From IMG/VR virus record IMGVR_UViG_3300032087_006057, positions 1 to 20,788 of that record: a stretch of 20,788 nucleotides of DNA, one strand, 5' to 3'. The position numbers were made by a program, and so were the translations under genes. This document shows, one piece after another, positions 4,353 to 19,096 of this stretch. This DNA is from a virus. The stretch's first letter is position 1, and the number at the start of each line of letters is the position of its first letter. The notes beneath the pieces were generated by a model. That model was given only the letters and a program-made list of their open reading frames with translations, was not told where the DNA came from and made no database searches.

Positions 4353-4648
4353 GCGAAGCATTCGAAACAATGGGAAAAGGCTTAAAAGAAGCCCTGGCTT
4401 TTGCAAAAGGCGAGATCTCTGCCGTTGTTCATGAGATCGAAGTACCGGAGCCAGATGTTCAGAACATTCGTGCCAAAACCGGCCTATCCCAAGCCGAATT
4501 TGCCAAAAGTATCGGGGTTAAGAAAGCCACGCTCCTCAATTGGGAGCACCATCGACGGTCTCCAGATGGGCCAGCTCGCGTTCTTCTCGCCCTGATCGCA
4601 AAAGATCCCAATATTGTTCAGCGCACCCTAAGCTCCACTCGAGGTTAA
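4349..4648 (+). CDS. Orphan HigA/XRE-type antitoxin or regulator
   Basis: A 99-residue DNA-binding protein. Residues 40-75 form an XRE-type helix-turn-helix (IRAKTGLSQAEFAKSIGVKK followed by LLNWEHHRRSP). The N-terminal helix (MGKGLKEALAFAKGE) and the segment VHEIEVPEPDV are typical of HigA-like antitoxins whose toxin gene lies just upstream. Here that toxin is reduced to a stub, so the protein is an orphan antitoxin or a plain repressor. It probably binds the palindrome at 4237-4257. It reads opposite to the head genes, and its TAA overlaps the terminase stop (convergent ends). Confidence 0.85.
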   Translation: MSEAFETMGKGLKEALAFAKGEISAVVHEIEVPEPDVQNIRAKTGLSQAEFAKSIGVKKATLLNWEHHRRSPDGPARVLLALIAKDPNIVQRTLSSTRG

Positions 4649-6618
4649 TCCATATATCGCGACCGCGCGACACGGCGGATCACAGGCTTTTTTGGCTCAC
4701 TCTGTGGCTGATGCCTGCGCGGTGCAGGGACCGCCTCGACCGCAAACTGTGCGGCCAACTCATCCCAACGTGCCTCTGACCAGCGATCCGCCCCCTGCAT
4801 CCAAGCCGCCGCCCGCGCATAGATACGACAATCGAGCGCTTCATTACGTTCACGTAGCTTTTGCCATTCGAGTTTTGCAAATCCACGCTTATTCTTGACC
4901 GTGACCAACTGCTCAGCCGTCAGCTGCTTAAGCCACTCGGCATCAACCCAGCCCGGCAGATGAAGAAAGCCGGGAAGAAACTTCTCCCCTTCCGCCGGGC
5001 TGGAGATTTCCGGCGGATCAAGCCGCAGGAACCGATAGGTTTCAGCCTTGAAGGTCGATGTTGCGATGGTCCAAAGACGCGCACCACGACGCAAACGCTT
5101 GCCGCCGATTGTGGCATCAACATATGTCGGGCCTGTGACCGGACTTGCTCGATTGAACCCCTCAAGACCCTTGATAGGAGCCACTTGACCAAAGCCAACT
5201 TGGCGGGCCCAGGCGTATACGGCCGATGTCTCATAGCCGGTATCAATCGCGAGCTTTGAGACGGTCATCTGTGCGCCGCTAGCATGCTCCCAACTGCGCC
5301 CCAAAATCTCAGACAGGCCTTGCCAACAAGCCTGATCTCCTGGACCACCCTCAATCACGATGTGATCGATGAGCCAGCTTTGAAGCCCCTTCCCCCAAGC
5401 CCAGACATCAACCTCGATCCGGTCCTTCTGAACGTCTGCGCCTGCTGTCAGAAAGAGCCCGCCCGCCGGAACCATGCCCGCGCGCCAATCTTCTTTGAGC
5501 CCCTGCAAGCGTTGCCAGTCCGGCGCTTCACCGCTTTCCATCCAGGTCTCGCCAAGAGACGTGTTCACGAAGGTCTTCATCGTCTCATCCCCACCAGCAC
5601 GTGCCGACAGGAACGCCTTAGCCATGGCCTCAAGCCGCACCCAAGGGGAGTAGATTTCGTTGAGATGGAAGCCCGCCGTCCCGTTGAAGGGTGCCTCCGC
5701 GATCCAGCGACCTTTGGAGACCGCCGCCCACCGGGTCTCATCGCTCCAAGCAACCTCGCACTCGGCACAGTGATAGCGCGCGGTGTCGGGGCGGTGGCCA
5801 CCGGTCTCGTCTTTATCCCATTTGACCTGCCCCCAGGTCAGTATTTGTTCATGCCCGCAGTCCGGGCATGACACCCAGAACCGGCGCTGATCACTTTCCT
5901 CAAACGCAGCCTCGATCCGGCTGGCCCCCTTATTCGTCGGCGTCGAGACCAGAACGATCTTGCGGTTCCAGAAGGTCACCGTCCGCTTCTTAGCCAAGTT
6001 CACCGGATCGCCTTCGGCGCCGGCGCTGAATGGATAGCGATCAACCTCGTCGCAAAGGAGCAATCGGATCGGTCGGCTTGCAAGGCCAGAGGGCGCATTC
6101 GCCCCCACAATCGTTAGGTGCCCGCCTGGAAACCGCTTATGCAGGATCTTGTTGTTCCCATCCCGCGACTTCGGGTTGGCGATCTTATCCTGCAAACAGG
6201 GTGTATCCCGCGCCATCGGTGAGAAGCGGTCTTTTGACCAAGTCTCAGCGTCTCGCTCGGTGGGCATCACCACCATGATCGGCGCTGGGTCTTGGTCGAT
6301 GTGGTAGGCGACGCAATTATTTACAACTTCGGTCTTACCCACCTGTGAACTGGACATGATCACAACGGTCTCAGTGGAGGCATCCGAGATCGCCTCCATA
6401 ATGCCGCGCTGGTATTCCGCGCGGCTCGTGCGCCACTGGCCAGGCTCGGCGCTGGCCTCCGAACTCAATCGCCTGTTTTGATCCGCCCAATCACTGATCG
6501 TCAGATCGGGTGGCGGTTTCAGCACCGTGAGGGCCTTCGCCACCGTCCGCTTCAGGATCGGAGAGCCCGTCAATCTCAGGGTCGGTTTCGAAGTCAATGT
6601 CTGGCTCTGCGAGATCAT
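4645..6618 (-). CDS. Terminase large subunit, GpA family
   Basis: A 657-residue packaging motor of the lambda gpA family (lambda gpA is 641). It cuts concatemeric DNA at cos-type sites and drives it into the prohead with ATP. Motifs: P-loop variant SSSQVGKT at about 89-96, Walker B LLLCDEVD at 186-193, coupling segment STPTNKG near 226, two CxxC pairs (C251/C254, C284/C287), and a nuclease-type strand GADVQKDRIEVDVWAWG near 390. ATG 6618 is preferred over TTG 6621 because of an AGGTG site just upstream. The first 130 bases overlap the end of the small-subunit gene; a later GTG at 6543 cannot be excluded as the real start. Confidence 0.93.
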   Translation of the reverse strand: MISQSQTLTSKPTLRLTGSPILKRTVAKALTVLKPPPDLTISDWADQNRRLSSEASAEPGQWRTSRAEYQRGIMEAISDASTETVVIMSSSQVGKTEVVNNCVAYHIDQDPAPIMVVMPTERDAETWSKDRFSPMARDTPCLQDKIANPKSRDGNNKILHKRFPGGHLTIVGANAPSGLASRPIRLLLCDEVDRYPFSAGAEGDPVNLAKKRTVTFWNRKIVLVSTPTNKGASRIEAAFEESDQRRFWVSCPDCGHEQILTWGQVKWDKDETGGHRPDTARYHCAECEVAWSDETRWAAVSKGRWIAEAPFNGTAGFHLNEIYSPWVRLEAMAKAFLSARAGGDETMKTFVNTSLGETWMESGEAPDWQRLQGLKEDWRAGMVPAGGLFLTAGADVQKDRIEVDVWAWGKGLQSWLIDHIVIEGGPGDQACWQGLSEILGRSWEHASGAQMTVSKLAIDTGYETSAVYAWARQVGFGQVAPIKGLEGFNRASPVTGPTYVDATIGGKRLRRGARLWTIATSTFKAETYRFLRLDPPEISSPAEGEKFLPGFLHLPGWVDAEWLKQLTAEQLVTVKNKRGFAKLEWQKLRERNEALDCRIYARAAAWMQGADRWSEARWDELAAQFAVEAVPAPRRHQPQSEPKKPVIRRVARSRYMD

Positions 6619-7054
6619 CAAGCACCTCGCGGATGGCCGTGCGGATCAGGGTCCGAGTATCTCCGACGGTGGGTTGGTCAAAAGCTTGTGGCGCCAGCCT
6701 GTCCGGCAACGCCAGCATGCGTGTTCTAAGGAGTGCTAGGACCGCAATCCAAGCCGCTTCAATTTGGTCCGCCGCGATCAGCGCGCGACGTTTTTCTTGG
6801 GCTTCCATCTCAGCAAGATCGGCCCGCGCCCGAATGAACCGCGCACGTTCCGCAGCATAATCTGGTGCGCCCGACTGTGCCTTTTGCGCCTGGTCCCGCA
6901 AGTATCGCACGTAGCCACGCACGGACCCGATCAAGTCATACTGGCCCCGCTCCGCTTTGGGGATCACCCCTTCCCGGCTCAACTGCTGAACCCGCCGTTC
7001 CGAAAGATCCAGGAGACGCGCGATCACCCCAATCGGCTGGGTGGCTGAGGACAT
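6491..7054 (-). CDS. Terminase small subunit, Nu1-like
   Basis: A 187-residue protein comparable to lambda Nu1 (181 residues), the subunit that recognises the packaging site. Residues 7-32 (PIGVIARLLDLSERRVQQLS and on) form the winged helix-turn-helix typical of Nu1. Residues about 70-105 form a charged helix rich in Arg, Ala and Glu that could dimerise. The last 40 residues are acidic and probably bind the large subunit. It overlaps the large-subunit gene by about 130 bases. The ribosome site is weak (AAGGG, 8 bases upstream). It is the first gene of the head operon, separated from HtpX by a short oppositely oriented ORF. Confidence 0.85.
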   Translation of the reverse strand: MSSATQPIGVIARLLDLSERRVQQLSREGVIPKAERGQYDLIGSVRGYVRYLRDQAQKAQSGAPDYAAERARFIRARADLAEMEAQEKRRALIAADQIEAAWIAVLALLRTRMLALPDRLAPQAFDQPTVGDTRTLIRTAIREVLDDLAEPDIDFETDPEIDGLSDPEADGGEGPHGAETATRSDDQ

Positions 7055-7349: not shown

Positions 7350-8261
7350 TCAGCCCCAAGGGCCCCGGTCAGCACTGTCTGTCTTACGGCTCACCCTCGG
7401 CATTGCGAATGAAGAAGGGCGCACGCCATTGCGTGCCATGTCTTCTAACGCCGCTACTCGGTTTGCTGTTTTGGGGTGGGTGGCAAAGAGGTTGTCGTGT
7501 CCATGCGCATGCAGTGGATTAATGATAAACATATGGGCCGTCGCCGGATTACGCTCCGCAATATGATTGTCTACTCGCGACGCCACAGTTTCCAACCGCC
7601 GCAGGGCCGATGCTAACCACAGAGGATTACCGCAGATTTCTGCACCAAGTCGGTCCGCTTCATATTCGCGTGTTCGGCTGATCGCCATCTGAACAAGGCT
7701 GGCCGCTAAGGGGGCCAAGATCATCATAGCCAAGGTTCCCACGATCCCCATTTGTCGATCTCGGTTGCCACCAAAGAAAAGCGCGAAGTTTGCAAGCATC
7801 GAGATCGCACCCGCGAAGGTCGCTGTGATCGTCATGATCAACGTGTCCCGATGTTTGATATGTGCCAACTCATGCGCAATCACCCCTGCCAACTCTTCAC
7901 GGGTCATGGACTTGAGCAAACCCGTCGTCACAGCAACGGCCGCATGCTCTGGATCACGGCCAGTCGCAAACGCATTTGGTTGATCCGTTGTCATCACATA
8001 AACACGCGGCACTGGCATCTGGGCACGACGTGATAAATCTTCAACGAGATCCTGTAACTCATGCGATCCAGGCGGTAGCGGTTGCGCCCCATGCATACGC
8101 AGAACCATGCGATCAGAGTTCCACCAAGTCACAAGGTTCATCACCCCAGCAGCAATCAGCGCAAAGACCGCACCCCCGGTCCCACCAAGCAAACCGCCAA
8201 GGCCAACAAACAAGGCCGTCATCGCGGCCATCAAAAGCGCTGTTCTGAAGAAAGGCGTCAT
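7350..8261 (-). CDS. htpX: HtpX-like M48 membrane zinc metalloprotease
   Basis: A 303-residue integral membrane protease; E. coli HtpX is 293. Two hydrophobic N-terminal segments (about 7-25 and 31-47) are followed by a cytoplasmic domain. The zinc site is HELAH at 130-134 with the third ligand probably Glu199 in TREYEAD. Two further hydrophobic segments lie at about 141-165 and 171-194. The end, DRGPWG, resembles tails of alphaproteobacterial HtpX proteins. In bacteria HtpX degrades misfolded inner-membrane proteins with FtsH. Here it sits between terminase and methyltransferase genes, so it is best read as phage-borne cargo. The ribosome site is weak. Confidence 0.9.
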
Positions 8262-10025: not shown

Positions 10026-10418
10026 TTAGCCTGCGATCGATATCATCGTGTTGTACAACCAACGCGCAAAATCAGCCTCGGACAGGACATCAGATGCCAG
10101 GTCTTCCATCGCTCGAACGCCCTCAATCGGATCCGGCCGCAATCCGAACCCATTGAGGCGCAAGAACGTCGCCGCAGTCACAAAAGCCGTGCGCTTGTTG
10201 CCATCAACAAACGCATGCGCCTTGGCGATCCCATAAGCGTAAGCCGCAGCGAGTTCCTCCAAGCGCGGCTCACCGTAGTGTGCTTTATTGCGTGGCCGCT
10301 CGAGAGCGCCCTCCAGCAAGCCCATATCGCGCAAACCGGAAGCACCCCCATGACGCGCAATTTGCCTGTCATGAATGATCATTACCGCCTGCTGCGGCAC
10401 CCAAACAAACTGGCTCAT
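10026..10418 (-). CDS. doc: Doc/Fic-family toxin
   Basis: A 130-residue death-on-curing toxin, near P1 Doc's 126 residues. The Fic core motif is HAFVDGNKR at 68-76. Lys at the position where AMP-transferring Fic enzymes have Gly is the Doc hallmark, so the likely activity is phosphorylation of EF-Tu, which blocks translation. Residues 17-45 and 54-66 are the helical scaffold. Its ATG overlaps the antitoxin stop (ATGA), so the two are co-translated. The active-site motif is intact, so the toxin appears functional. It ends next to a gene-poor gap. Confidence 0.92.
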   Translation of the reverse strand: MSQFVWVPQQAVMIIHDRQIARHGGASGLRDMGLLEGALERPRNKAHYGEPRLEELAAAYAYGIAKAHAFVDGNKRTAFVTAATFLRLNGFGLRPDPIEGVRAMEDLASDVLSEADFARWLYNTMISIAG

Positions 10419-10639
10419 GCAAGGGCCTGCAGCATGTCCCGGTTTTCATCCATGACGATTTGTGCAGCAGCAAGAGCGGCCGCCAGTTCTGGGTTTTGCG
10501 GCGTCATTTTCAGACTGCCGTCATCCCCACGAACAAAATAAACCGTATCGCCCTCACGCGCATCAAGGGCTGCAAGCATCTCAGCCGATAGGGTCACAAC
10601 GGCTGAATTGCCCACTTTGCGAATCCGTGTCTCAAACAT
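10415..10639 (-). CDS. AbrB/MazE-type antitoxin of the Doc toxin
   Basis: A 74-residue SpoVT-AbrB swapped-hairpin protein: MFETRIRKVGNSAVVTLS with the typical GNSAVVTLS strand, then a helical C-terminal tail (about 45-74) that would wrap and neutralise Doc. P1 uses Phd instead, but AbrB-type partners for Doc toxins are known. The start is ATG 10639, not the in-frame ATG 10663, because a GGAGG site sits 6 bases before it. A promoter and an upstream terminator make antitoxin and toxin an independent two-gene unit, probably repressed by the antitoxin itself. Confidence 0.9.
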   Translation of the reverse strand: MFETRIRKVGNSAVVTLSAEMLAALDAREGDTVYFVRGDDGSLKMTPQNPELAAALAAAQIVMDENRDMLQALA

Positions 10640-10666
10640 GCTTGCCTCCAATTGGTTATACATCCG

Positions 10667-14515: not shown

Positions 14516-14901
14516 CAGAAAGTCACCTCAGGGGTCATGGGCGCAAAGCCTGTGCGGTCTTGGCCCGCCAGCGCGCGTAAGTGGTCGCAATATCCGGTGA
14601 TCACCGCGTCGAGAAAGCGATCCCACTCAGTCTCCGTCAGGGTGGCGAGATCGGATTTTCCGATCCTCTCGAGATAGTCTCCCCCCAGTTGGCCGCCGAC
14701 GGTCATCGCCTGCATTTCATTCGAAGTCGTATCAATCATGCCCGACCTCCCGTGGCAGATGTCTTGGCAGGTAAGGCTGCAGAGGTGCTGGCGACTGGTG
14801 TCGCGGCGCGGGTCGCAGACGCCAAAGGCGCGGTCGAACCACCCAAACCCACGAGGTTGCCTGTGGCAGACGGCGCAGAGGCCGGGATCGGATGAGAACA
14901 T
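14515..14901 (-). CDS. DUF6511-like zinc-finger protein
   Basis: A 128-residue protein. Residues 9-49 carry a zinc-finger-like set: C9/C12 in CAVC, then C41 and C45 in CSLTC, around GFGWFD. Residues 55-128 (MIDTTSNEMQAM, then TEWDRFLDAVITGYCDHLRA) resemble DUF6511, a family of unknown function found next to phage primases. Its first 55 codons overlap the helicase 3' end in another frame. A second in-frame ATG at 14739 overlaps the helicase stop (ATGA) and has a strong GGGAGG site 6 bases upstream, giving a 73-residue form without the zinc finger. Which start is used is unclear; both may be. Confidence 0.65.
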   Translation of the reverse strand: MFSSDPGLCAVCHRQPRGFGWFDRAFGVCDPRRDTSRQHLCSLTCQDICHGRSGMIDTTSNEMQAMTVGGQLGGDYLERIGKSDLATLTETEWDRFLDAVITGYCDHLRALAGQDRTGFAPMTPEVTF

Positions 14902-16472
14902 GGATCAAACCTATAGCCAGAGATTTCGACATAGCGGCCAATGGGCCGCAGAGAGATTGTGCTCGGCCGCATAAGCTGACCGACCTGCAAAAGAGCCTCA
15001 TCCACACTGAGCGGCACAGGACACCGCGGCGCACGCTTGCGCCACCAGTCAGCAGCCTTCCGGCGCGCATAGCCCTTGTGCTCAAGACAAACCCATTCGC
15101 TGTAAGTTTTAAGGCCGCAGCTGTAGGTCACTTTGAGCGATGGCGGCCCGCCTCGTTTGTCGTGGCGGCTGTAGGCCACACCGTGGACGGCGAGCCATTC
15201 TTGTTTTGGCGACAGGACCGGCAGCACAGCCGCCGTTGGCGCGATCTTAACCTCACGCTCTGGAAGGACATGGCCGCAATCCGGACAGTCCATGGCAGAG
15301 AGCGCTATGATGCTGTCGCACTTTGGGCAGACCTTTGTTGGCGCCTCCCCTCCACCGCCCTCTCTGGCACGTTTGGGACGCACAAGATCGATCGGACCGT
15401 GACGTTGGACATTGCCCGCAAAGTCAAGAACAAGGCAGTTCTCTTTGCCTGGCGCGAGACGCGTGCCTCGTCCCACCATTTGAACATAGAGCCCCGCAGA
15501 CTTAGTGGGGCGCAGGAGTGCAATCAGATCCACAGCCGGCGCATTAAACCCGGTGGTCAGCACACCCATTGAGGAAAGCGCGCGGATCTCTCCCCGCTTG
15601 AAGGCGGCAATAATGGCGTCCCGCTCGTCCTTCGGCGTGTCGCCAAAGATCGTACGGCAGGTGATACCCCGACGCTCAAATTCCTCGGCGACATGGCAGG
15701 CATGATCCACGCCCGAACAGAAGGCGAGCCAGGACTTACGATCACGCCCCTGTTCCATGATTTCGCTGACCGCAGCGCGGGTGATGGCGGTTTGATCGAC
15801 CGCTGCCGCCAAATCGCGCTGAATATAATCGCCCGCGCGGGTGCCAACCCTTGAGACATCTAATCGCGTGGCAGGTTGTTTTGACACGAGCGGGCACAGA
15901 TACCCAGCATCCATCAAATCCCGCACCGGCGCCTCGAAGGCGATATCCGTAAAAAGCGCGTTCTTACCTTCGTGCAACATGCCGCTGTCGACACGGAACG
16001 GCGTGGCGGTCAGGCCGATCACTTTAAGCGCCGGATTGATCTCCTTGAGCGCCTCAAGGAAGCGCCGATACATCGTGCTCGATGTGCCTGGAATGAGATG
16101 CGCCTCGTCGATCAACACCAAATCCGTGTGACCAATCTCAGCCGCGCGGCGGTGGATCGACTGGATACCTGCAAAGAGGATCTGCGCCCGCGCCTCGCGT
16201 TTGCCCAAGCCCGCTGAGTAAATACCGGCAGGTGCCTCTGGCCAGAGCCCAATCATCTCAGCATGGTTCTGGGCAATCAGCTCACGCACATGGGTCACAA
16301 CCAAAATACGCTGATCAGGCCAGGCCTTTAGAACGCTCTCAATGAAAGATGCGGCCACGAGCGATTTTCCCGCCGCTGTTGGAAGGATTACGATCGGGTT
16401 ACCTGTGTTTTCTCGGAAATAACCGTAGATCGCGCTGATCGCGGCCTGTTGATAGGGACGCAGGGTCAGCAT
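14736..16472 (-). CDS. RadD-like superfamily 2 DNA helicase
   Basis: A 578-residue SF2 helicase, near RadD's 586. Motifs: Walker A LPTAAGKS at 30-37, DEAH at 122-125, TATP at 155-158, and QMVGRGTR (motif VI) at 331-338. A C4 zinc finger follows at C382/C385/C396/C399. It likely unwinds or remodels branched DNA in replication and recombination. A GGAGG site 7 bases upstream supports the ATG. The last 55 residues (after GYRFDPCSH) are Ala/Ser/Thr/Pro-rich and lie over the DUF6511-like gene, so they are probably an overprinted extension, not a domain. Confidence 0.9.
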   Translation of the reverse strand: MLTLRPYQQAAISAIYGYFRENTGNPIVILPTAAGKSLVAASFIESVLKAWPDQRILVVTHVRELIAQNHAEMIGLWPEAPAGIYSAGLGKREARAQILFAGIQSIHRRAAEIGHTDLVLIDEAHLIPGTSSTMYRRFLEALKEINPALKVIGLTATPFRVDSGMLHEGKNALFTDIAFEAPVRDLMDAGYLCPLVSKQPATRLDVSRVGTRAGDYIQRDLAAAVDQTAITRAAVSEIMEQGRDRKSWLAFCSGVDHACHVAEEFERRGITCRTIFGDTPKDERDAIIAAFKRGEIRALSSMGVLTTGFNAPAVDLIALLRPTKSAGLYVQMVGRGTRLAPGKENCLVLDFAGNVQRHGPIDLVRPKRAREGGGGEAPTKVCPKCDSIIALSAMDCPDCGHVLPEREVKIAPTAAVLPVLSPKQEWLAVHGVAYSRHDKRGGPPSLKVTYSCGLKTYSEWVCLEHKGYARRKAADWWRKRAPRCPVPLSVDEALLQVGQLMRPSTISLRPIGRYVEISGYRFDPCSHPIPASAPSATGNLVGLGGSTAPLASATRAATPVASTSAALPAKTSATGGRA

Positions 16473-16759
16473 GGCGCAGCCTCCGAGTGGCGAGCGTCAT
16501 TTGCCCAAGTCGAGCCATCGGCCATACGGTAGGTGACAACATCGTCTTCCGCATCGATGACCTCACCCGGGACAAGATCGGGGATGAAGAGATGGCGCAT
16601 GCAGGCCGCGCGCTGTTCAAGCGCTGACAGCATCCGGTCATGGCGTGCACAATGCCATCCACCTTCAATCGGGGTGGAATGCAGACAGGATCGGCAATTG
16701 ACCGCGGCGCCACCACCTTCGTGACAGAGGGCGTGATGATTGCAGAACCGACACTCAAA
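16466..16759 (-). pseudogene. Disconnected C-terminal part of the Cas4-like nuclease
   Basis: Directly after the TGA at 16762-16760 the same frame stays open for 97 codons and ends in TGA at 16468-16466, overlapping the helicase start. It reads FECRFCNHHALCHEGGG, then NCRSCLHSTP, GWHCARH and later LFIPDLVPGE. The segment has no ATG, GTG or TTG before its cysteine cluster, so it cannot be a separate gene encoding that cluster. Three cysteines (CxxC plus one six later) are the C-terminal iron-sulfur ligands expected for Cas4-like nucleases. It is therefore the lost tail of the upstream gene, joined in ancestors through a codon for Trp. Confidence 0.75.
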
Positions 16760-17410
16760 TCAGACCGGGTCCTCGCTGATCCGCATGGGTGGCTGCTGGG
16801 CGAAGATGATGCGCCCAGCTTTCTCGAGGAGGCGTTCGGCCATTGCGCTGTCGGCCTCAATGCGCTCGATATGCAACGCATCACTGTCCTTGCAGACCGC
16901 CACATAGAGCGCGCGGGTGATGCCCGTCAGATGCATGTAGATCTGCATTTGGGCTGCGTGCTGTGGTTTGGCCACGACCACACCCTTGGCGCTCAGCTCC
17001 TTGAAGCTCTTGAGCCCATGCGTTTTGAACTCCAGCACATGCCAGGTCTTCGGCGCCTCAAGAAGGCCAGTGGCCACCCCATCGAGCGAGCCACCAAAAT
17101 GCCCGCCATGAGCCTCAACCCGGAACTGGCGACCGGTTTCAGGATCGACCTCGAGTACCGTTGCCCCGGTGGCGCGCAGATTGCGCACGAGACGGTCCTC
17201 TTCCAGCTGGCCGGTCTCAAAAAGGCGCAACAGACGGCCAGAATGGCGCGAGGGTGTCACCCAGCGGAAATCGTACCAGAGCGCACGGGCGCAAGACTTA
17301 CCAATAATCGAGGCCCCAAGGTGATCGCGGAACCCATCGCCCTGGCGGGCCTCATAATCAGCATAAATCGCGGCCAGCGTCGGTGTGGGGGCTTCGGGTA
17401 GCTCAGCCAT
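16760..17410 (-). CDS. Cas4-like PD-(D/E)XK nuclease, truncated by in-frame TGA
   Basis: A 216-residue product when read from ATG 17410 (217 from a GTG one codon upstream). It carries the nuclease core: Asp111 in GGSLDG and Glu128-x-Lys130 in VLEFKTH (numbered from the GTG). Cys41 in KSCARALWYDFRW is the single N-terminal cysteine that Cas4/AddB-type nucleases pair with three C-terminal ones. Those three lie just beyond the TGA, so the short protein should lack its cluster. Intact length would be about 314-315. The ATG overlaps the preceding stop (TGATG) and has a GGGGAGGGG site. Expected role is processing DNA ends for the Sak4/DUF669 system. Confidence 0.82.
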   Translation of the reverse strand: MAELPEAPTPTLAAIYADYEARQGDGFRDHLGASIIGKSCARALWYDFRWVTPSRHSGRLLRLFETGQLEEDRLVRNLRATGATVLEVDPETGRQFRVEAHGGHFGGSLDGVATGLLEAPKTWHVLEFKTHGLKSFKELSAKGVVVAKPQHAAQMQIYMHLTGITRALYVAVCKDSDALHIERIEADSAMAERLLEKAGRIIFAQQPPMRISEDPV

Positions 17411-17836: not shown

Positions 17837-18328
17837 TCAGCCCTTCTTGTTCCAGGGTGCCGCGGCCATTTTCGGGGGCGCTGAAGACACAGACGGTGAC
17901 GCAGCAGTGCGAGCTGCCGAGGTCGCCCCCTTGTCAGGCGGCAAATAGGCAATCGCGTTGCTCTCACCGTAGCCGTTCTTGGGTGGCCTAATTTTGACCT
18001 GGATCGTCATCGGAATGAGGTGCAGCTCCTCACTGTCACTGACATGCATCCGCCCCGTGGCATGGCAGATGGCCGAGAGCGTGCGCTGCGCGATTTCCAC
18101 AGTGGTCGGGTTCGGGTTCACCAAGTTCAGTTGATCGAAGATTTTCCGACCCTGTTGCTCCCCCTCAAGAATATCAATCATCAGCCACAAGAACTGACCC
18201 ATACCGTTCTTGGTGACGCGCATTTCACTTTCAACGATCTGGGCGCGATAGGTGCCGGCCGGCAGAAGCTCATAAGCGGTGGTGGGCTCAATGCTGGTCG
18301 CATCAAAGGACGTATCGAAACGTGCCAT
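17837..18328 (-). CDS. DUF669-family recombination accessory protein
   Basis: A 163-residue protein resembling DUF669 (PF05037), found beside phage recombinases. The core is residues 1-130: MARFDTSFDATSIEPTTAYE, LLPAGTYRAQIVESE, then QFLWLMIDILEGEQQGRKIF and IAQRTLSAICHATG. The tail (130-163) is Ala/Ser/Pro-rich and ends APWNKKG, similar in style to flexible tails of single-strand binding proteins. It may coat or handle single-stranded DNA for the Sak4 protein; that is inference. An AAAGGA site 7 bases upstream fixes the start. Confidence 0.83.
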   Translation of the reverse strand: MARFDTSFDATSIEPTTAYELLPAGTYRAQIVESEMRVTKNGMGQFLWLMIDILEGEQQGRKIFDQLNLVNPNPTTVEIAQRTLSAICHATGRMHVSDSEELHLIPMTIQVKIRPPKNGYGESNAIAYLPPDKGATSAARTAASPSVSSAPPKMAAAPWNKKG

Positions 18329-18349: not shown

Positions 18350-19096
18350 TCATTCAGGTTGGGGCATGGCTGCGAGGAACTCTGACCACTCAAGCGGCAG
18401 GGTGTCCGGCAGGCCGTAACGGTTCTTGGCAAGGTATGCGGGGCGCTCTTCGGTGTGCATGACACGCGCGCCGGACCCGAGCGCCCGAGTCACCTTCTTG
18501 TTGAAGCCAACGTCGGATTTGGCGACCGAGATCTGGTAATTGGCGAAGAGCACGACGTCCGAATGCTCCTGCAAAAGCGCCGAAGCACGGGTCTGCAGCT
18601 TGATCACATAGCGATCGTAGGGCTCGTGCTCGGGACTGTCGAAGCGCTTGATGTCGGTATGGGCGATCTGGATGACCACCATGCCTTTCTGGTCCCGAAG
18701 CGCGTTCAGCTTATCGAGATAGTCCCGCCAAACCGTCAGGGCCTCAGCATAACCCTTGCCAAACCCCGGCGCCTCGATGTTGACCCAAGAATTGCGCCGA
18801 CAAGCCTCAGCCCAGATCAGAGGCTCCAGCCAGTCAACGCTATCGATGACCACCGTGCCAAAGTCATGGTCTTCCATCAGGAGCGCATCGAGGGCTTCCG
18901 CCACTTCTGCATAGCTCGTCGCCAGCGGAAAATGCGGCACCTGAAGCTTCCCAAGGCCATCCTCGGTCATAACAAATACCGGCCGGTCAGAGGCCGCCGC
19001 AAAGGTCGACTTACCGACGCCCGCGACACCGTGGATCAAGATGCGCGGCGGGGTCAGCGTGACCGCAGAGCGCAGAGATGCGAGAGAGATCGCCAT
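18350..19096 (-). CDS. Sak4-like RecA-fold ATPase (AAA_24)
   Basis: A 248-residue P-loop ATPase of the phage nucleotide-binding family, related to Sak4 annealing/recombination proteins. Walker A is GVAGVGKST at 23-31 and Walker B TVVIDS at 81-86 with Asp85. Later hallmarks are VVIQIAHTDIKRFDSPEHEP and a Lys/Arg-rich segment near 200-225. It would pair single-stranded DNA with homologous targets, with the DUF669 protein as partner. Its ATG overlaps the preceding stop (TGATG). Length and motif order fit the family. Confidence 0.88.
   Translation of the reverse strand: MAISLASLRSAVTLTPPRILIHGVAGVGKSTFAAASDRPVFVMTEDGLGKLQVPHFPLATSYAEVAEALDALLMEDHDFGTVVIDSVDWLEPLIWAEACRRNSWVNIEAPGFGKGYAEALTVWRDYLDKLNALRDQKGMVVIQIAHTDIKRFDSPEHEPYDRYVIKLQTRASALLQEHSDVVLFANYQISVAKSDVGFNKKVTRALGSGARVMHTEERPAYLAKNRYGLPDTLPLEWSEFLAAMPQPE

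Follow-up and report, generated by a model that had tools for sequence, protein, structure and literature searches.

The Cas4-family nuclease SSO0001 (PDB 4ic1) carries a staple of four cysteines, and replacement of any one of these by alanine rendered the protein insoluble (PMC3466216). Among cultured phages, exonucleases of PHROG group 1990 that are 40–50% identical to the protein described here are encoded by, e.g., Rhizobium phage 16-3 and Pseudoalteromonas phage C7, and relatives of up to 97% identity occur in viral contigs as well as in genomes of Rhodobacteraceae and related Alphaproteobacteria. In intact copies, the RecB-like core and an "iron staple" (Cys40 together with Cys220, Cys223 and Cys229) make up one domain, to which this subfamily adds a ribbon with four further cysteines. 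A gene of this kind, interrupted by one in-frame TGA, was identified at positions 16466–17410 on the minus strand of the 20,788-nucleotide stretch of viral DNA that was analysed (the window).

The gene comprises 314 codons from an ATG at 17410, which overlaps the stop of the upstream gene and at which alignments of homologues also begin, and is open for 216 codons (16760–17410, minus strand) before the TGA at codon 217 (16762–16760). Past this stop the same frame, reading FECRFCNHHALCH...NCRSC, runs on uninterrupted for 97 codons until a second TGA (16468–16466); the inner stop and the open frame behind it, described in an earlier note on this DNA, were both confirmed on minus-strand reading. 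The open part encodes the RecB-like PD-(D/E)XK residues H104, D110, E127, K129, Q154 and Y158, all invariant or nearly so in alignments, and the invariant Cys40 (17291–17293), the predicted N-terminal cluster ligand and the only one of the four kept in the 216-residue product. The three C-terminal ligands, Cys220, Cys223 and Cys229 (16724–16753), the first of which the TGA precedes by two codons, lie past the stop and are invariant in alignments, as is a second, zinc-ribbon-like set at residues 239, 242, 254 and 270 (16601–16696), which probably binds zinc and is missing in shorter distant homologues. The cysteine pattern was as the earlier note had described it, but the residue numbers given there (41, 221, 224 and 230 for the cysteines, 218 for the stop and 315 for the length of the joined protein) were one too high because counting had begun at a GTG (17413) one codon upstream of the ATG. 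Since the part past the stop matched homologues from end to end (up to 97% identity), with invariant cysteines, the alignments indicate that it is real coding sequence and not a chance open frame. As had been claimed, no start codon (ATG, GTG or TTG, in frame) was found between the stop and the cysteine cluster; the first in-frame ATG past the stop (RMLSALEQ) is located downstream of both CxxC pairs. That the stop falls just before the cysteines is only mildly notable, as 16 codons in this frame are one transition from a stop codon and three of them (205, 206 and 217) are situated between catalytic core and cysteines.

Membership of the read-through protein in PHROG 1990 was indicated by its match to the phrog_1990 profile ("Cas4-domain exonuclease"; E = 3.3e-105, residues 9–281) and by homologues that aligned over residues 1–314. 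In contrast, the score against Pfam Cas_Cas4 (PF01930) was 13.0 bits, below the curated cut-off of 22.7, and that against PDDEXK_1 was also below its cut-off. A search of PDB sequences returned chance matches only. A first structure model relied on close homologues alone; it was of poor quality (pLDDT 52) and was set aside. The model of the joined protein obtained with a diverse alignment (pLDDT 92) had the Cas4/lambda-exonuclease fold, with SSO0001 as the top PDB match (E = 3e-7), followed by lambda exonuclease. The read-through protein shares the four-cysteine staple of SSO0001 and is approximately 16% identical to these proteins; no cas genes were recognised among the ten window proteins scanned against Pfam, in which respect the window differs from these systems. 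From its sequence matches and model, the protein appears to be a nuclease of the Cas4/AddB "iron staple" type with predicted exonuclease activity and a predicted Fe-S cluster. The earlier note was correct in proposing a nuclease of this type that has lost its cysteine ligands.

The exonuclease belongs to the recombination module of an alphaproteobacterial (Rhodobacteraceae-type) phage or prophage. The genes around it, concerned with replication and recombination, encode an AAA_24 ATPase (18350–19096; PF13479, E = 8.7e-49) that is a candidate Sak4-like recombinase, a probable ssDNA-binding protein of the DUF669 family (17837–18328; PF05037, E = 9e-19), a primase-polymerase and, in the next gene, a superfamily 2 helicase with ResIII and Helicase_C domains (14736–16472), the three genes with coordinates being on the minus strand. 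The start of the helicase gene overlaps the normal stop of the exonuclease gene (ATGCTGA) and lies 7 bases downstream of its own GGAGG. The contig also encodes a GpA-type terminase. Elsewhere in the window, a gene for an M48 (HtpX-like) peptidase (7350–8261), 99% identical to that of the nearest relative, was noted, flanked by the small terminase gene and a ParB-methylase gene, and positions 10026–10663 encode a Fic/Doc-like protein and an overlapping small AbrB-like protein (families judged by eye; 99–100% identity to the relative), which are likely a toxin-antitoxin pair.

The private nature of the stop was evident from comparisons with homologues. Thus, the codon at this site was TGG in 159 of 160 homologous loci and consisted of Ns in the remaining one, one of the six retrieval patterns for this set having included the Trp codon. 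In a wider set of loci, Trp was present in 273 of 274 (again with one of Ns), the unanimity of loci L179–L294 being partly by construction as these were retrieved with a pattern that included the Trp codon. The alignment proposed in the earlier note therefore gave Trp at the stop in the relatives. No inner stop was found in 16 near-full-length copies (81–97% identity) from a search of 296 family genomes, which, like the read-back of distant homologues, was made without any pattern containing the Trp codon. Similarly, when 2.9 million viral contigs were scanned for a TGA ahead of codons for F-E-C-R/S-F-C, the 17 matches were due to chance and included no homologue, and no further record sharing the stop was recovered by an exact search with 27 bases of the window's allele. 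From the distant hits that had been flagged for an internal TGA or TAA, 12 places were sampled and read back, 11 of which proved to be distant homologues with stops after Cys229, flagged because the alignment ran past natural protein ends. The residue at the site may differ in remote relatives, being Ala in phage C7, and so Trp itself appears neither essential nor universal. In addition, distant homologues in same-family genomes (L300–L310) end just past Cys229, without the C-terminal four-cysteine ribbon, so that the ribbon, unlike the staple, looks as if it can be dispensed with.

The exonuclease gene was compared with that of the nearest relative, a Paradonghicola geojensis prophage, for which dS was 0.177 and dN/dS 0.076, within the range of neighbouring genes. 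Values of dN/dS were 0.25 after the stop and 0.04 before it. In a test for relaxed selection, nonsynonymous differences were present in 5 of 11 changed codons after the stop versus 4 of 30 before it, but this value was reached by 133 of 758 comparable pairs and the C-terminal part is less constrained in all relatives, so that the contrast need not reflect relaxation. The few amino-acid changes that are most readily assigned to the window's own branch (residues 216, 224 and 288) lie at or past the stop. Since the gene is otherwise conserved and the other window genes compared were full length relative to those of the prophage, the stop would be either young or an error.

Taken together, these comparisons suggest that a phage exonuclease gene of a known kind has recently acquired a nonsense mutation private to this window, a reading that is probable and in which loss of activity is deduced from relatives. 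A point mutation would have converted the Trp codon ahead of the staple to a stop, and translation would then end at residue 216. The truncated product would keep the catalytic residues but, with three of the four cluster ligands gone, could not be expected to bind the cluster, so that misfolding and loss of the exonuclease would follow; given the single remaining ligand and the insolubility of the SSO0001 cysteine mutants, the 216-residue protein is most likely unstable and inactive. With a separate ribosome-binding sequence ahead of its gene, the downstream helicase should still be made, although loss of the coupling to the normal stop of the exonuclease gene may render its synthesis less efficient. 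The significance of such a mutation is small, broken genes being common in prophages; if real, it would mean that the phage can manage without an exonuclease of its own or that the sequence comes from a decaying prophage.

That the real gene of the phage is intact and the stop in the contig stems from an error of sequencing or assembly is less likely than such a mutation but a serious alternative. An error would account for a lone private base difference in a strongly constrained gene, at a position that is invariant elsewhere, and for the failure to find the same stop in another record, and two further private G:C to A:T differences nearby (codons 216 and 224) might be due to a consensus of poor quality in this stretch. 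These two changes are, however, of tolerated kinds, and neither frameshifts nor inner stops were seen in the other window genes compared, from which the general quality of the contig looks good. Nonsense mutation and sequence error had both been offered in the earlier note and fit the data; for its third explanation, readthrough or recoding of UGA to give two nuclease forms, no support was found.

Programmed readthrough or recoding, with insertion of Trp by a near-cognate tRNA or of selenocysteine to give a short and a long nuclease, is very improbable. The 97 conserved codons of open frame past the stop would fit such a scheme, and in bacteria tRNA-Trp does read UGA at a low level. Against it, a TGA was not present in any homologue found, the window uses the standard code, and no signal was detected: there was no hairpin directly after the TGA and no stable structure beyond it (shuffle z-scores of 1.4 and 1.2, i.e., above zero and weaker than chance), and the window yielded neither a tRNA nor an Rfam match. 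Selenocysteine would be expected at a site with a conserved TGA or with Cys in relatives, but these carry Trp (273 of 274 loci, one with Ns). Moreover, the short form would be without the cluster ligands that a relative needs for solubility. A leaky UGA specific to this lineage, yielding a little full-length exonuclease by Trp insertion beside a staple-less short form, is an equally slim prospect. Still less credible is a two-gene arrangement in which the cysteine-rich part has a start codon of its own and is made as a separate chain that associates with the first part; the open frame accords with it and nothing more, whereas a start codon ahead of the cysteines is absent, no homologue was found split at this site with a separate cysteine-rich gene, a case considered in the earlier note, and the shorter distant homologues end after Cys229, never ahead of the cluster. 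Finally, a phage code in which TGA specifies Trp, as the Trp of relatives at codon 217 could suggest, has a negligible chance of being correct and is refuted by the use of TGA as the terminal stop of 17 of the 24 window genes, and by 125 TGG codons compared with one inner TGA, that of the exonuclease; the presence of near-identical relatives in Rhodobacteraceae genomes also speaks against it.

The nonsense mutation that we favour sets the window apart from otherwise similar elements. The prophage of Paradonghicola geojensis FJ12 (L082, L295 and L296) has the same gene order, a 97% identical nuclease and other genes that are mostly 91–100% identical, but differs in that its nuclease gene is intact and in that inteins, neither of which is present in the window, interrupt its helicase and probably its terminase. 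Two prophages of this type were noted in the Paradonghicola genome (G001:C17 and G001:C11; loci L082 and L089), with nucleases 97% and 89% identical to that of the window. In the helicase of the former (L082:3939-6719), the P-loop (MPTG-C...HHN-SGKS) is interrupted by a LAGLIDADG-domain intein that the window counterpart (14736–16472) lacks; a helicase gap of equal length was seen in three loci (L082, L065 and L075), and L192 also appears interrupted. Near the intein site (window 16340–16400), the window helicase (PTAAGKS versus PTGSGKS in the relative) is more divergent than elsewhere, as though this allele had been exchanged for another or could resist the intein. An apparent second intein, in the ATPase site of the terminase (L296:821-3526, ending THN-TE), is likewise lacking in the window counterpart (4645–6621). 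The first part of the L296 terminase, an 86-residue piece, meets a stop in a shifted frame ahead of the intein, and the terminase of this prophage may itself be broken. Compared with the PHROG 1990 exonucleases of cultured phages (Rhizobium phage 16-3 p085 and the Pseudoalteromonas phage C7 nuclease), the window gene is related over its whole length and alike in catalytic residues, cysteine pattern and downstream helicase, and differs in its premature TGA, at which site the C7 copy encodes Ala. Across the homologues compared, the staple cysteines were retained in every intact relative examined whereas the C-terminal ribbon was not.
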